DNA of 64,000 nucleotides from Ruminococcus bicirculans (ex Wegman et al. 2014) (GTDB lineage Bacteria; Bacillota; Clostridia; Oscillospirales; Ruminococcaceae). The stretch lies in assembly GCF_000723465.1 (NCBI RefSeq), contig NZ_HF545616.1:434001-498000 (forward strand), read 5' to 3'. A program made the position numbers and the translations under genes. This document shows, one piece after another, positions 57,383 through 62,258 of the stretch. Positions within the stretch are counted from its first letter, which is position 1. Each line of letters starts with the position of its first letter. A model generated the notes under the pieces. It had not been told where the DNA came from and ran no database searches. It saw only the letters and a list, made by a program, of their open reading frames with translations.

Positions 57383-57460
57383 CATATTAAACCAAAGGAC
57401 AGAAAGCCTTTGGTTAGACGGCAAGTCGAAAGACTTTGTTTTATACGAAAGGAAAAAATC

Positions 57461-58330
57461 ATGAGCAAAGAAAAGGTCATTGACATTTCAACAAGAAAAA
57501 CAGGAAAGATCGTTGGCATTTGTGCGGCGGCAGTTGCGGCTATAATAGTGGTCGTATCCTCCGTATCCATAGTTCCGGCAGGCTGTACGGGCGTTGTGAC
57601 GACCTTCGGCAAGGTATCAGACACTGCACTCAACGAGGGACTGCATCTGAAAGTGCCTTTTGCACAGCGTGTAACAACAGTGTCAAACAAGATACAAGTT
57701 TATCAGGCTGACGCTGACGCAGTTTCAAAGGACTTGCAGACTGTGAACTCTACCATAGCGGTGAACTTCCGAATAAAGTCGGCTTCTTCTGCAAGCATTT
57801 TCAAGAATATCGGCTCAGATTACGAGAACGTTATCCTTATGCCAACAGTGCAGGAATGTATGAAGTCGGTATGTGCAAAATATACGGCTGAACAGCTTAT
57901 CACTGACAGAGCGCAGGTGGGCGAGGAAATAAAGGCACAGCTCGTTTCAAAGGTGGATGAATACGGTATCGAGATAGAGAAATTCAACATTGTGAATTTT
58001 GATTTCTCATCTGAATTTAATGAAGCCATAGAGGCAAAGCAGGTAGCAGAGCAGAATCTTTTGAAAACAAAGACCGAGCAGGAGCAGGCTATAGTTGTAG
58101 CTGAGGCGGAGGCTAAGAAAAAGGTTATTGCCGCAGACGCTGAGGCAACTTCCATAAAGACCAAGGCTGAAGCTCAGGCAGAAGCCAACAAAACTATCTC
58201 TGAATCTCTTTCAAACGAGCTTATAAAGTATCAGACCATCGATAAGTGGGACGGCGTTCTGCCTAAGGTGGCCAATGACGCAAACCCTCTGATATCTCTT
58301 GACCTTGACGAGCAGAAAACCGCTGAATAA
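57461..58330 (+). CDS. Prohibitin/HflC-like SPFH (band 7) membrane protein
   Basis: 289 residues from the ATG at 57461 (AAAGGA upstream). N-terminal membrane segment (GKIVGICAAAVAAIIVVVSSV), then an SPFH domain (VPAGCTGVVTTFGKVSDTALNEGLHLKVPF onward, about 40-200) and an Ala/Glu/Lys-rich coiled coil (about 200-260). SPFH proteins form membrane scaffolds, often with proteases such as FtsH. It precedes a separate operon containing a second, different SPFH protein. Confidence 0.92.
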   Translation: MSKEKVIDISTRKTGKIVGICAAAVAAIIVVVSSVSIVPAGCTGVVTTFGKVSDTALNEGLHLKVPFAQRVTTVSNKIQVYQADADAVSKDLQTVNSTIAVNFRIKSASSASIFKNIGSDYENVILMPTVQECMKSVCAKYTAEQLITDRAQVGEEIKAQLVSKVDEYGIEIEKFNIVNFDFSSEFNEAIEAKQVAEQNLLKTKTEQEQAIVVAEAEAKKKVIAADAEATSIKTKAEAQAEANKTISESLSNELIKYQTIDKWDGVLPKVANDANPLISLDLDEQKTAE

Positions 58331-58442: not shown

Positions 58443-58471
58443 TTGACATAAAAAGCGTTTTCTGTTATCAT
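58443..58471 (+). promoter_or_regulatory. Promoter of the ydjGHI-like operon
   Basis: TTGACA at 58443-58448, 17 bases, TATCAT at 58466-58471. It separates the operon from the band-7 gene. Confidence 0.75.
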
Positions 58472-58539
58472 AAATATATGTGAACATATTTTACTTTTAT
58501 GGCATAAGGCTGTAAAATATGGAGTTGGGAGGAGAAAAA

Positions 58540-58824
58540 ATGTTGAAAAAGCTATACCGCACATTAGGCTTTGCACTTATTTCCTGCAATTTGTTTTTCA
58601 CCCCTGTCATGGCATATGCCGACAGCAGTGTGAGCGTGGGAACAAATATGTGCTTTGCTATACCGGGAGGACTTATAACAGGCTTTGTGCTTGTTTCAAT
58701 GAGCCGCACAAAACAGAAAGCTACCAAGGCAGATAAATACATAAAGAGTAATCTTAAACTCAATGGGCGTAACGACACCTATCTGCGTACAACCACTGAT
58801 AAGACTAAGATAAAAGACGATTGA
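58540..58824 (+). CDS. Small membrane protein resembling the C-terminal tail of TPM-domain proteins
   Basis: 94 residues from the ATG at 58540 (GGGAGGAG upstream). A signal-peptide-like N-terminus (LGFALISCNLFFTPVMAYADSS) precedes a second hydrophobic segment (CFAIPGGLITGFVLVSM) and a basic tail SRTKQKATKADKYIKSNLKL...NDTYLRTTTDKTKI. The tail resembles the cytoplasmic end of TPM-domain (YgcG-like) proteins, while the TPM domain itself is missing. First gene of the operon; 15 bases separate it from the next. Confidence 0.72.
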   Translation: MLKKLYRTLGFALISCNLFFTPVMAYADSSVSVGTNMCFAIPGGLITGFVLVSMSRTKQKATKADKYIKSNLKLNGRNDTYLRTTTDKTKIKDD

Positions 58825-58839
58825 TAGGGGGTACGGAAA

Positions 58840-59940
58840 ATGGCTGTTAATATTTCTTATAAATGCCCTAACTGCGGAGCGGAGCTTTTCTGGAGTGCTG
58901 ACAAAAACTGCTGGGCATGTGAATACTGCGACGGACAGTTTACTTTAAAAGACCTTGAAGAAGCAGGCGGTGACGCTAAAAAGGCGGAGGAACTCAACAA
59001 GGATAACGTTGAAAAGCATGAAGAGGTCGATAAGGACGAATACAGTATGTCAAATGACGGAACTGTAGGAAATGACCTTGTAAAGTATACCTGCTCACAC
59101 TGCGGAGCGGAGATAATCACCGACCGCTCAACTGCAGCAACAGTTTGCGTTTACTGCGGAAATGCGGTAATAATGGGAGAGCAGATAATAGACAATTTCT
59201 CCCCTGACTATGTTATACCTTTTAAAGTGCCGAAAAATCAGGTAATGGACACTTTCCAAAAATTCAGCAAGAAGCCTCTTACACCGAAAGATTTCAACTG
59301 CGATAGGGTAGTGGACAAGATGCAGGGTGTTTATATCCCGTTTTGGCTCTATTCAGGAAACTGCGAAGGCTCTATTACTGCAGAGGGTATAAACACAAGA
59401 ACATGGACTTCGGGAAATTACAGATACACAGAGAAAAAGTATTATTCAGTTTACAGAAACGGAAATCTCAATTTCAAAGCTGTTCCTGTGGATGCTTCTT
59501 CAAAGACTGACGATGACGCTATGGACTCTATCGAGCCTTTTGATTACTCGGAAATGACAGCGTTCAACCCGGGTTATCTTTCGGGATATCTTGCAGAAAG
59601 ATATGACGAGGATAAGGATAAGTGCCTGCCTAGGGCTAAAGAACGTATCGAGAACACAACTCGTGACGAACTTAGAAATACTTGTAACTACAACAGCGTA
59701 AACGTTCAGTCATATGAAAAGCACACCGAGATAAAGGACGTTAAATATGCTATGCTTCCAACATGGCTTTTGTATACAACCTATCAGGATAAGCCTTATT
59801 TCTTTGCAATGAATGGTCAGACAGGTAAATTTATCGGAAACCTGCCTATAAGCAAGGGAAAGCTTGTGGCTTACTCGCTTCTTGGTGGCGTGGGCGGATA
59901 TATTATCGGAGCTATACTTCAGATAATGGGAATATTCTAG
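58840..59940 (+). CDS. Double-zinc-ribbon membrane protein, YdjG-like
   Basis: 366 residues. Two N-terminal zinc ribbons are visible: Cys9/12 with Cys27/30, and Cys85/88 with Cys103/106, separated by a charged Asp/Glu/Lys linker. A beta-rich domain follows (about 120-335; VIPFKVPKNQVMDTF, MQGVYIPFWLYSG, MLPTWLLYTTYQDKPYFFAMNGQTGKFIG). One C-terminal hydrophobic hairpin (LLGGVGGYIIGAILQIMGIF) could anchor it. The general layout recalls Bacillus YdjG of the pspA-ydjGHI operon; the match is by architecture and neighbourhood. No enzymatic motif. Confidence 0.8.
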   Translation: MAVNISYKCPNCGAELFWSADKNCWACEYCDGQFTLKDLEEAGGDAKKAEELNKDNVEKHEEVDKDEYSMSNDGTVGNDLVKYTCSHCGAEIITDRSTAATVCVYCGNAVIMGEQIIDNFSPDYVIPFKVPKNQVMDTFQKFSKKPLTPKDFNCDRVVDKMQGVYIPFWLYSGNCEGSITAEGINTRTWTSGNYRYTEKKYYSVYRNGNLNFKAVPVDASSKTDDDAMDSIEPFDYSEMTAFNPGYLSGYLAERYDEDKDKCLPRAKERIENTTRDELRNTCNYNSVNVQSYEKHTEIKDVKYAMLPTWLLYTTYQDKPYFFAMNGQTGKFIGNLPISKGKLVAYSLLGGVGGYIIGAILQIMGIF

Positions 59941-59957
59941 TAGGGGGTATCAGCTAA

Positions 59958-60677
59958 ATGCCTGAAATATCAACGGCACTTATAATAAAAATAATAGTTA
60001 TAGCGGTCGCTATAGGCGGTGGTATAGCAGTGATATATTCTGTGAAAAAAGCGGTATCGAACGCCATTGGCAGACAACTGAGCCGTGCCAACGACCTGCT
60101 AAGGACCATAAATGACGCAACTGAGGAAAGACAGAACAACGCCATGCAGTTTACTTATGTTGACCCTAATGTGGTGAACAACATAAAGAGAGATTTTCCT
60201 GACTATGATGAAAATATAGCAAAGAGCATAGTGGAAAACACTGTGATGAAATATTTTCTTGTTATAAACGGAGAAGCAAGCGAGAATCAGCTTGAATACT
60301 GTACCGAAGCGTTCAAGCAGAGAGCAGCCACGATGGCAAAAGACAACTTGTCAACGGTTACGCCAAAGCATTATGACGATATACATATCCACAAGTCGCA
60401 GGTGGCGTCTTATCATAGAGATCATGACGCTGCAACGGCAAAGTTTCAGGTATCTCTTGAATACAAGCTCAACGGGATAAAGGCACAGCACATTTATGAG
60501 GCGGATTATTCATACTATCTTTCAATGGGGATAGAGGGCGAAAACGCCAGCCTTATATGTCAGTTCTGCGGAGCACCTGTGGACACCGCAGGCTCAGTTT
60601 GTCCTTACTGCGGTTCTGAGATACACAGCTCTGTAGAGCGCACATGGAAAGTCAGCAGGATATCCATGCTGAGATAG
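59958..60677 (+). CDS. Membrane protein with Tim44-like domain and zinc ribbon, YdjH-like
   Basis: 239 residues. One N-terminal membrane helix (IIKIIVIAVAIGGGIAVIYSV), a helical linker, a Tim44-like domain (about 75-190; AFKQRAATMAKDNL, then KSQVASYHRDHDAATAKFQV) and a C-terminal zinc ribbon (CQFCGAPVDTAGSVCPYCG). AGGGGG precedes the ATG, 17 bases after the previous stop. Architecture and gene order suggest a partner in the same complex as the YdjG-like and YdjI-like proteins. Confidence 0.8.
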   Translation: MPEISTALIIKIIVIAVAIGGGIAVIYSVKKAVSNAIGRQLSRANDLLRTINDATEERQNNAMQFTYVDPNVVNNIKRDFPDYDENIAKSIVENTVMKYFLVINGEASENQLEYCTEAFKQRAATMAKDNLSTVTPKHYDDIHIHKSQVASYHRDHDAATAKFQVSLEYKLNGIKAQHIYEADYSYYLSMGIEGENASLICQFCGAPVDTAGSVCPYCGSEIHSSVERTWKVSRISMLR

Positions 60678-60732
60678 ACAAGTTTAAAACCCCTTGGGGT
60701 GAAATAATACAGACAACGAAAGGAATTTAACT

Positions 60733-62208
60733 ATGGGACTTATTAAGATGTTTACATCAGCAGTCGGCTCAACATTTGCCGATCAGGTAGTAGAGTACTT
60801 CAGATGTGAGGATATGTCAACTAAGATACTCTGCCAGCCGGCTACTCTTGTTAAGAGAGGAAAGACTGTGAACAACGGCACAGAGGGCGTTATCTCAAAC
60901 GGTTCACGCTTTGACGTTGCGGTAAATCAGGCGGCTTTGCTTATCGAGAACGGCAGAGTACACGATTTTGTTATCGGTACACAGGAAACAGCAGGTCAGT
61001 ATAAGTATGATTCAACTGTATCTCCGTCACTTCTTGGCGGCGGCTGGGGTGACCTTGGCGCTTCTATCAAGGAGATAGGCAGAAGATTTACAGCAGGTGG
61101 TCAGGCTATGAACACCATGCGTCTTATCTACATAAACCTCAGACCTCTGCCTGGAAACAAGATAGGCTTCGGCAAGATACCTTTCAGAGACGGCGAAATG
61201 AACCTCACTCTTAACGCACAGGGTCATGGTCAGTATGAACTTCAGATCGTAAACCCTATGAACTTCTATGAGAACGTTGTTCAGAACGTAAATAAGGTAC
61301 TTACTGTTGACAGCCCTGACGGCGTGGCAGTTCTCGGCCAGCTTAAGGCTGACATGACACCTAAGTTCCAGAAGGCTCTTACAAGGATATCCGCTCAGAA
61401 AATACCATACGATCAGCTTGGTCTTTATCCTGATGAGCTTGCTGAAGCAATGAATGCAGAGCTTGAAGAAAAGTGGGCTACAAAGGGTGTTAAGATAACA
61501 AGCCTTGCTATTGAGCTGAACGTGGATGAAGAGTCAAAGCAGAGAATCGCAAAATTCCAGGAGGCAAAAACTGTTGGAAGTGATCCTTCAATGCTCTATG
61601 CTATGGACAGAATGTCTATCAACAAGGCAAGAGAGGCAGCGGCAAGCAACGCAAACGGTGTTATGGCAGGCTTTATGGGCATGGGCATGGCAGGCGGCAT
61701 GATGGGTCAGCCAATGGACGCAACAATGTATCAGCAGCAGATGCAGCAGAACATGATGAATCAGCAGGCTGCACAGGCAGCTCCACAGCAGGCAGCACCA
61801 GCGGCTGCACCAACACAGGCTGCACCAACACAGGCTGCACCTGAGAACGGCTGGACTTGTGCTTGCGGAACAAAAAACACAGGAAAATTCTGTGCTAACT
61901 GCGGACAGCCTAAGCCTGAGCCAAAGCCGGCAGCAGACAGCTGGAAGTGTTCATGCGGCACAGAGAACACAGGAAAGTTCTGTGCAAACTGCGGTTCACC
62001 AAAGCCTGAGCAGCCAGTAGGCTGGACTTGCTCATGCGGAGCAGTGAACAAGGGCAAGTTCTGCGCTGAGTGCGGAAAGCCAAAGCCTGCATCAGAGCCG
62101 CTTTACAAGTGTGACAAGTGCGGCTGGGAGCCTGAAGATCCGAAAAATCCTCCTAAGTTCTGCCCGGAATGTGGAGATCCATTTAACGATAACGATATTC
62201 AGAAATAA
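60733..62208 (+). CDS. SPFH / virion-core-like protein with four tandem zinc ribbons, YdjI-like
   Basis: 491 residues. The SPFH-type region (about 20-280) has the YdjI/virion-core pattern (DQVVEYFRCEDMSTKILCQPATLVKRGKT, spread over 18-44; AGQYKYDSTVSPSLLGG, YELQIVNPMNFYENV). A Met/Gln/Ala/Pro-rich linker (about 310-372) leads to four ribbons at about 373-394, 403-424, 430-451 and 458-484; the first three are near-identical C-x-C...FCANCG repeats. Bacillus YdjI lacks such an array as far as I know. AAAGGA precedes the ATG. Last gene of the operon; a terminator follows. Confidence 0.88.
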   Translation: MGLIKMFTSAVGSTFADQVVEYFRCEDMSTKILCQPATLVKRGKTVNNGTEGVISNGSRFDVAVNQAALLIENGRVHDFVIGTQETAGQYKYDSTVSPSLLGGGWGDLGASIKEIGRRFTAGGQAMNTMRLIYINLRPLPGNKIGFGKIPFRDGEMNLTLNAQGHGQYELQIVNPMNFYENVVQNVNKVLTVDSPDGVAVLGQLKADMTPKFQKALTRISAQKIPYDQLGLYPDELAEAMNAELEEKWATKGVKITSLAIELNVDEESKQRIAKFQEAKTVGSDPSMLYAMDRMSINKAREAAASNANGVMAGFMGMGMAGGMMGQPMDATMYQQQMQQNMMNQQAAQAAPQQAAPAAAPTQAAPTQAAPENGWTCACGTKNTGKFCANCGQPKPEPKPAADSWKCSCGTENTGKFCANCGSPKPEQPVGWTCSCGAVNKGKFCAECGKPKPASEPLYKCDKCGWEPEDPKNPPKFCPECGDPFNDNDIQK

Positions 62209-62225
62209 TTCTTATAGTTATTTTG

Positions 62226-62258
62226 AGCCGTCCTGCGGAATGCGGGGCGGCTATTTTT
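62226..62258 (+). terminator. Terminator of the ydjGHI-like operon
   Basis: 11-bp stem AGCCGTCCTGC / GCGGGGCGGCT (with G-U pairs), then ATTTTTG. Confidence 0.8.

Follow-up and report, generated by a model that had tools for sequence, protein, structure and literature searches.

What does a membrane scaffold of the YdjG–YdjI type look like when its TPM protein is reduced to a membrane helix and a tail? We address this question for a four-gene operon, A-B-C-D, of Ruminococcus bicirculans (contig NZ_HF545616.1, positions 434,001 to 498,000; this whole stretch of 64,000 nucleotides is called the window below). A first-pass annotation, made from the sequence alone, had likened the operon to Bacillus subtilis pspA-ydjGHI and described it as a rewired membrane-stress or scaffold complex in which PspA is missing and shared zinc ribbons might hold the assembly together. 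We lean modestly towards reading it as a PspA-independent YdjG–YdjI membrane scaffold with a TPM-less YdjH, gene A, whose tail strand would dock on YdjG.

In B. subtilis, two-hybrid interactions link YdjG with YdjH, YdjH with YdjI and YdjH with PspA; YdjI foci require YdjG and YdjH and persist without PspA, and PspA foci also require YdjG and YdjH (PMC8581546; this and the other sources are cited from the parts accessible to us). The window operon shares with pspA-ydjGHI a double-ribbon YdjG-like membrane protein, an SPFH and zinc-ribbon protein of the YdjI type and a membrane protein apparently derived from YdjH. It differs in that PspA is absent from operon and genome, that YdjH is cut to a transmembrane (TM) helix and tail, and that this trimmed YdjH stands first and an extra Tim44-like protein third, in the order A-B-C-D. 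The derivation from YdjH runs through full-length TPM relatives, B. subtilis YdjH itself lying outside the tail-profile comparison.

Gene A is homologous to full-length TPM proteins, and TPM-less forms recur

Gene A starts at the ATG at 58540, with a GGAGG that ends 7 nt upstream (a longer open reading frame (ORF) call begins at 58519). Its product has a charged N-terminus, a hydrophobic segment ending in AYA, 11 further residues, a TM segment at 39–54 and a positively charged tail of 40 residues. A Pfam scan returned no match of any kind, TPM (PF04536) included. A profile of 25 full-length TPM proteins, built without any short form, matches A at E=4.7e-5 among 7344 ORFs and aligns it to model positions 177–247 of 269, which hold the TM and the tail. 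The other ten stand-alone forms are matched by the same profile at 6.9e-19 to 0.022, and the significant matches to stand-alone forms cover the TM and tail end only. The weakest form, L010 (0.022), barely beats an unrelated ORF at 0.033, and was joined to the family via its close match to window protein A (1.5e-27). Because A was the starting query of the iteration that gathered the 25 members, the profile cannot count as fully independent of it; the model that matches the signal region of A contained A itself, and that match is hence not independent.

The full-length proteins (243–440 residues) comprise a signal-like start, the TPM domain, a TM and the tail, and PF04536 was found in the three relatives given to Pfam (1.9e-33, 9.9e-32 and 3.2e-28). 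In the alignment the tail spans about 43 residues with the rough motif MK.QLKTVR..A..Y...GS..LT..rD.FLyr.V.R, and among full-length proteins it is about as conserved as the TPM domain (mean pairwise identity 0.347 versus 0.346). The genome of R. bicirculans holds a single tail gene, a single strong YdjG match and a single YdjI gene. At E≤0.01 gene A is its sole tail match, and a full-length protein with both TPM domain and tail was thus not found in it. The earlier proposal of a TPM tail lacking a TPM domain agrees with both the profile match and the missing Pfam match; judged from sequence, gene A is a YdjH with its outer TPM domain gone.

Far from the cluster in the same genome, at about 1.80 Mb of C1 (L001:856-1986), a 376-residue protein combines a diverged TPM match with hydrophobic segments and with zinc-ribbon cysteines at its C-terminus; it has no tail match.

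Related loci were collected as a non-random draw, in which L005–L084 are the best 80 relatives of D by similarity and most others were picked for matching the tail or for the length, short or long, of their open frame. The best-80 D loci hold 44 YdjG rows: a full-length TPM protein is the neighbour in 26, the tail stands alone in 10 and is fused in 1, and the remaining 7 show no such form. Over all 131 YdjG rows, a stand-alone tail adjoins YdjG in 24 and is fused to it in 8. Throughout the window clade (the window, L005–L010, L117, L122 and L123) A is a separate protein that precedes B. Other tails follow B, as a protein of 65–120 residues (L038, L053, L066, L118, L119, L120, L180, L181, L182, L184 and L192) or inside an ORF of 156–165 residues (L035, L115 and L183). 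Two 70-residue cases outside the window's class (L218 and L219) are later finds and are absent from the YdjG tree. Eight proteins (L064, L126, L134, L135, L139, L140, L189 and L190), at about six places of that tree, resemble the window in carrying the tail without a TPM domain, and differ from it in that the tail is joined to the YdjG C-terminus. In wider samples the tail matched in 85/197 genomes of the family (E≤0.01), 87/391 of the class (E≤1e-4) and 11/299 of the phylum. A stand-alone or fused form was confirmed by locus reading in 14 of the 85 family genomes; for most of the remaining 71 the judgement came from open-frame length alone, and a few of them (G088, G119) match partially by chance.

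The YdjG tree comprises 122 of the 131 YdjG rows (88 full-length, 24 stand-alone tail, 8 fused and 2 undetermined). Twenty loci that are smaller or second copies of others were skipped beforehand, and L036, L039, L060, L063, L072, L082, L141 and two L119 paralogues were dropped for a long branch, no tail state or a cut-off end. On this tree, 11 or more changes lie between full-length and TPM-less states, a single TPM-less clade is rejected (approximately unbiased test, p-AU 1.9e-102), and all 10 YdjG rows of the window clade have the stand-alone tail (Shimodaira–Hasegawa-like approximate likelihood ratio, SH-aLRT, 100). The direction of change is not given by the tree itself; our reading of the changes as losses rests on the TPM domain of B. 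subtilis YdjH (PMC11237479) and on the signal-like segment that window A keeps. The first-pass annotation had named beforehand two outcomes that would speak against it, a degraded copy found only here, and clusters that always have pspA nearby and a full-length TPM protein at A's position. Instead, the short form recurs in other lineages, and short forms stand in that position elsewhere too. On these comparisons TPM-less A appears recurrent and is no local wreck.

The full-length proteins also share an end, [GSRK][KRSHGN][FY] behind a Ser/Thr/Gly-rich linker, which is present in 84/91 of them, in 0/25 stand-alone tails and in 0/8 fusions; ORFs running off a contig were left out of this count, and the doubtful L195 (56 residues, no YdjG nearby) is among the 25. 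This end and the TPM domain move together in 5.3 of six supported independent tree pairs on average, and never oppositely, so that outer domain and end look like one removable unit. Translation of a ydjH primer implies that B. subtilis YdjH ends in SRGSF (PMC8581546).

One locus is unusual in its own right: at L119:285-4446, two enlarged YdjG paralogues (544 and 530 residues) flank a tail-less TPM protein just upstream of the YdjG/tail pair.

The tail is linked and fused to YdjG

Of 101 ORF records with a tail (overlapping loci counted twice), 97 belong to a YdjG gene or have one at most 600 bp away; the other four are L037, L107, L109 and L125. Tail and YdjI genes also co-occur in genomes, with an odds ratio of 36 in the 197 family genomes.

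The natural fusion L064 was folded with AlphaFold2 from alignment A6, which holds L064, 18 YdjG proteins and 21 separate tails. The tails in A6 lie at residues 366–428 except for the first few residues, and it was chosen over a mixed YdjG/tail alignment, A4, which misplaced them. The model (predicted local distance difference test, pLDDT, 86.8; predicted template modelling score, pTM, 0.80) contains helices at 332–358 and 366–388 and a tail strand at 407–424, with pLDDT of 93, 89 and 79 for residues 401–410, 411–420 and 421–430. DSSP assigns no further tail strand of three or more residues, and strand 407–424 must therefore pair with the YdjG part of the model.

Covariation between separate proteins was then compared with this model. 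A first pass over 119 YdjG/tail pairs pointed to i+j of about 609 (L064 numbering), and the final set comprised 111 separate-gene pairs without the 8 fusions. Seven of the top 25 inter-protein covarying pairs fall in the antiparallel band i+j=609±3. They join YdjG residues 182, 186, 187, 197 and 199 to tail residues 410, 412, 422, 423 and 425 (five distinct tail residues) and lie mostly within model strands 186–210 and 407–424, the former corresponding to residues 194–218 of window B; among the covarying positions are B 195 and 207 and A 91 and 76 in the numbering of the window proteins. In shuffle controls, with any register and orientation allowed, the best band held at most 5 pairs (200 global shuffles) or 4 (300 shuffles among similar YdjG proteins). 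Covariation thus favours an antiparallel register, mostly against YdjG strand 186–210. Docking of the tail on YdjG by β-strand addition is a computational prediction, supported by these calculations only.

Proposed mechanism and rival readings

In the reading we favour, A would have kept its signal-like helix, TM and cytosolic tail after the TPM domain was lost. The tail would add as an antiparallel β-strand to the YdjG sheet (L064 186–210, window B 194–218), and a two-protein membrane anchor could therefore still form. This YdjG–tail anchor would recruit the soluble SPFH protein YdjI (D), as YdjG and YdjH do in B. subtilis, and C, anchored through its own TM, would be a second accessory linked to YdjI. 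What this lineage lacks, the TPM ectodomain together with the Gly/aromatic C-terminus, would form a removable unit, perhaps a sensor or chaperone.

Several points weigh against this reading. The YdjG tree was a quick one with long branches. Five genomes with a TPM-less form (G110, G205, G235, G371 and G617) have, elsewhere, a TPM-bearing tail protein that is longer or linked to YdjG, and G112 holds a 486-residue TPM-plus-tail protein at a contig end; some TPM-less forms are therefore second copies, none being shown in the window's genome. The C-terminal end pattern was defined after the sequences had been inspected, and its co-loss with the TPM domain rests on 6 supported independent pairs with a median p of 0.0625. 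A is less constrained than B, for which the ratio of nonsynonymous to synonymous rates (dN/dS) is 0.02–0.20 where measurable. Alignment A6 contains no window-clade tails, the protein folded was the L064 fusion and no window-protein complex, and the strand partner was inferred from DSSP. Widening the selection to the top 50 covarying pairs leaves 7 in the band, and shuffles then reach up to 6. Scored over the whole diagonal, the antiparallel register (3.88) does about as well as the highest-scoring of 60 local shuffles (3.87) and worse than that of 40 global shuffles (4.17), and a parallel diagonal (3.87) ties with it. Finally, we infer YdjI recruitment and all physiology of the window operon, its expression and any role in stress included.

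Possible, if doubtful, is a more elaborate scheme in which YdjH is a two-part signalling device. Its tail would be a reversible clip-on strand that completes the YdjG sheet, with the clip controlled by the TPM domain and the Gly-Phe end; TPM-less tails and fusions would be locked on and the YdjG–YdjI scaffold constitutive. The module would then be an SPFH membrane-organising system of its own, which PspA joined in some lineages such as Bacillus.

It is unlikely that the tail docks instead on YdjI (D) or on the Tim44-like C, its link to YdjG being one of co-transcription only. The two-hybrid interaction of YdjH with YdjI (PMC8581546) would fit such a contact, as would PARC6, which is among the top structural matches of C and, according to PDB entry titles, was crystallised with PDV1. 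However, the tail also adjoins YdjG at L115, L118 and L119, which are loci without YdjI and C; besides TPM proteins, it was seen fused to YdjG only; and it covaries with YdjG, the one partner for which covariation was computed.

We consider it improbable that A is a decaying, functionless ydjH remnant kept in the operon by chance. A is indeed short and devoid of any Pfam domain, it does not have the end typical of the full-length proteins, and it is less constrained than B, with dN/dS up to 0.47 (L005–L007). Nevertheless, dN/dS of A is below 0.5 in all 13 pairs with unsaturated dS (of 28 pairs; range 0.04–0.47). A is also kept in 10/10 window-clade rows and in other lineages, over a tree with 11 or more changes; eight proteins carry the tail in frame with YdjG, and the tail covaries with YdjG.

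A rewired stress complex distinguished by PspA loss, as the first-pass annotation had it, is very improbable: PspA is a partner in B. subtilis (PMC8581546) and was not found in this genome, yet in the 197 family genomes it occurs independently of YdjI (20/109 genomes with YdjI, 16/88 without; odds ratio 1.01, p=1.0). Its absence here is therefore ordinary. A search of the 2.97 Mb genome (99.95% complete) for PspA itself (PF04012) returned nothing at E≤1, hence nothing in the operon either, and to this extent the annotation was right. PspA is present in 3/14 family genomes with a TPM-less form and in 14/71 other tail-bearing ones, and exceeds the cut-off in 7/47 genomes (47 of those behind the best 80 D loci), including the tail-only L038 and L053. 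Nor is pspA always nearby, which the annotation had named as an outcome against it: among the matches listed, it adjoins the YdjI gene in only 1 of the 20 family genomes that hold both (G089; judged by eye, in partly fragmented genomes). The YdjG–YdjI scaffold, we infer, is more aptly regarded as a unit employed by PspA in some lineages.

The same genome carries a PspC-family gene, a 64-residue open frame at C1:2088894-2089064 (L225), despite having no PspA.

Partner genes, operon layout and meaning

The favoured reading, a PspA-independent scaffold with a TPM-less YdjH, draws its remaining members from genes B, C and D. B has two CxxC..CxxC ribbons with sub-threshold zinc-ribbon Pfam matches and a C-terminal hydrophobic helix, and near its start reads ISYKCPNC, where the ydjG primer translates to MIISYKCPNC (PMC8581546); the annotation of a YdjG-like double-zinc-ribbon membrane protein holds. 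D matches Band_7_1 at 22.8 bits (E 7.8e-5), slightly below the 24-bit Pfam cut-off, and the cysteines of its first, third and fourth ribbons are invariant in the 16-row alignment A3. With conserved relatives and four ribbons in its sequence, D agrees with the YdjI-like SPFH protein that had been described.

The β-rich domain of B is known from the L064 model. In a Foldseek search of the PDB this YdjG-like domain (L064:1489-2784) showed no convincing relative (best E 2.3e-2, probability 0.09), and the YpeB/NTF2 relation proposed for YdjG in the accessible part of PMC11237479 was not confirmed by that search.

The description of C as a Tim44-like/zinc-ribbon protein stands through its relatives; window C itself lies below Pfam detection. 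Tim44 (PF04280) was found in 5/15 C family members at E≤1, the best, L077 (7.7e-25), above the cut-off. Window C yields zinc-ribbon-type Pfam matches only, all below cut-off, and no Tim44 match. Its AlphaFold2 model (pLDDT 77.5, pTM 0.61) has weak Foldseek matches to ARC6/PARC6 and Tim44 (best 1.1e-3, none at E≤0.001; Tim44 2cw9 at 5.5e-3). By these weak matches C would share the fold class of the Tim44 C-terminal and ARC6/PARC6 NTF2-like domains; it differs from them in being below Pfam detection and in having a C-terminal zinc ribbon. Sequence searches of the PDB gave no match for D and three weak matches of no use for C.

A C match above 100 bits occurs in 17 family genomes, and in 15 of them, among the YdjI matches listed, C immediately precedes YdjI (exceptions G159 and G238); this count and that of PspA next to YdjI were made by hand from coordinates. 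A role of C as substitute for the TPM protein, suggested by L072 and L082 (D-B-C without tail), was set aside because C-D-B-TPM clusters exist and window-clade locus L009 has the tail without C. L006–L008 carry three diverged tandem Tim44-like C copies each (L006:5898-7954; the same gene set in L007 and L008).

The C-D-B-TPM clusters of the same family (L200, L201, L203, L204, L206 and L207) resemble the window in combining the YdjG, YdjI and C families with a TPM protein on one strand, and differ in gene order and in having the TPM domain; in four of the six (L201, L203, L204 and L207) the tail profile falls below threshold on the TPM protein. The window operon looks like two known pairs joined, tail–YdjG and C–YdjI, with the TPM domain gone.

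The ORF list and sequence reading confirmed genes A-B-C-D as four real, same-direction ORFs (Table 1), as first described, together with the flanking promoter-like and terminator-like sites. Both sites are consensus matches; such matching found 15 promoter-like sites against 11.4±3.6 in shuffles, and 8 terminator-like sites against 5.2±2.3. Sigma-W control is a mark of the B. subtilis operon; the promoter match at the window operon is sigma-70-like.

Table 1. Features of the A-B-C-D operon, in window positions
Feature	Position	Strand	Basis
Sigma-70-like promoter, TTGACA-17-TATCAT, TG before second hexamer	58443..58471	+	Consensus scan, 11/12 matches; not functional evidence
Gene A, 94-residue stand-alone YdjH tail protein: N-terminal signal-like helix, short outer loop, TM, cytosolic tail	58540..58824	+	ORF, GGAGG, profile match, relatives
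A residues 1–27, positively charged start and hydrophobic signal-like segment ending AYA	58540..58620	+	Sequence reading
A residues 39–54, transmembrane helix	58654..58701	+	Hydrophobic stretch aligned with TM of full-length TPM proteins
A residues 73–90, predicted tail β-strand, aligned with L064 407–424	58756..58809	+	AlphaFold2 of natural fusion, covariation, mapping
Gene B, YdjG-like: two N-terminal zinc ribbons, β-rich domain, C-terminal TM	58840..59940	+	
B residues 193–210, predicted partner strand of tail	59416..59469	+	Covariation register i+j=609 (L064 numbering), mapped to B
Gene C: N-terminal TM, Tim44/NTF2-like domain, C-terminal zinc ribbon	59958..60677	+	
Gene D, YdjI-like SPFH protein with four zinc ribbons at end	60733..62208	+	Band_7_1 match, conserved family
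D, four C-terminal zinc ribbons	61852..62181	+	Cysteine pairs read in sequence
Intrinsic-terminator-like hairpin	62226..62252	+	12-pair stem, 8 GC pairs, then ATTTTTG

Just upstream of the operon, at 57455-58330, lies an SPFH gene of the HflK/HflC-prohibitin type (Band_7 3.8e-35). It was rejected as a member of the system, having no other match at E<1e-3 among the called ORFs of 84 loci, many of which are ended early by contig ends.

A stand-alone tail or a YdjG–tail fusion was not found described in the accessible literature on the B. subtilis operon and in surveys of phage shock protein (PSP) systems (including PMC8581546, PMC11237479, PMC9239133 and PMC10936438), a scope that left out most subscription papers and supplements. 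The YdjG–YdjH–YdjI scaffold is of a known type; a YdjH tail set apart as a predicted YdjG-docking strand would be new.

For the question of how YdjG and YdjH together build a membrane receptor for an SPFH protein, it matters that a minimised YdjH exists in nature. It recurs in the window's class, occurs in one other class and separates the predicted docking part from the outer domain, and the covarying positions name residues for mutation in B. subtilis. It also shows that the YdjG–YdjI scaffold is more than an appendage of PspA.

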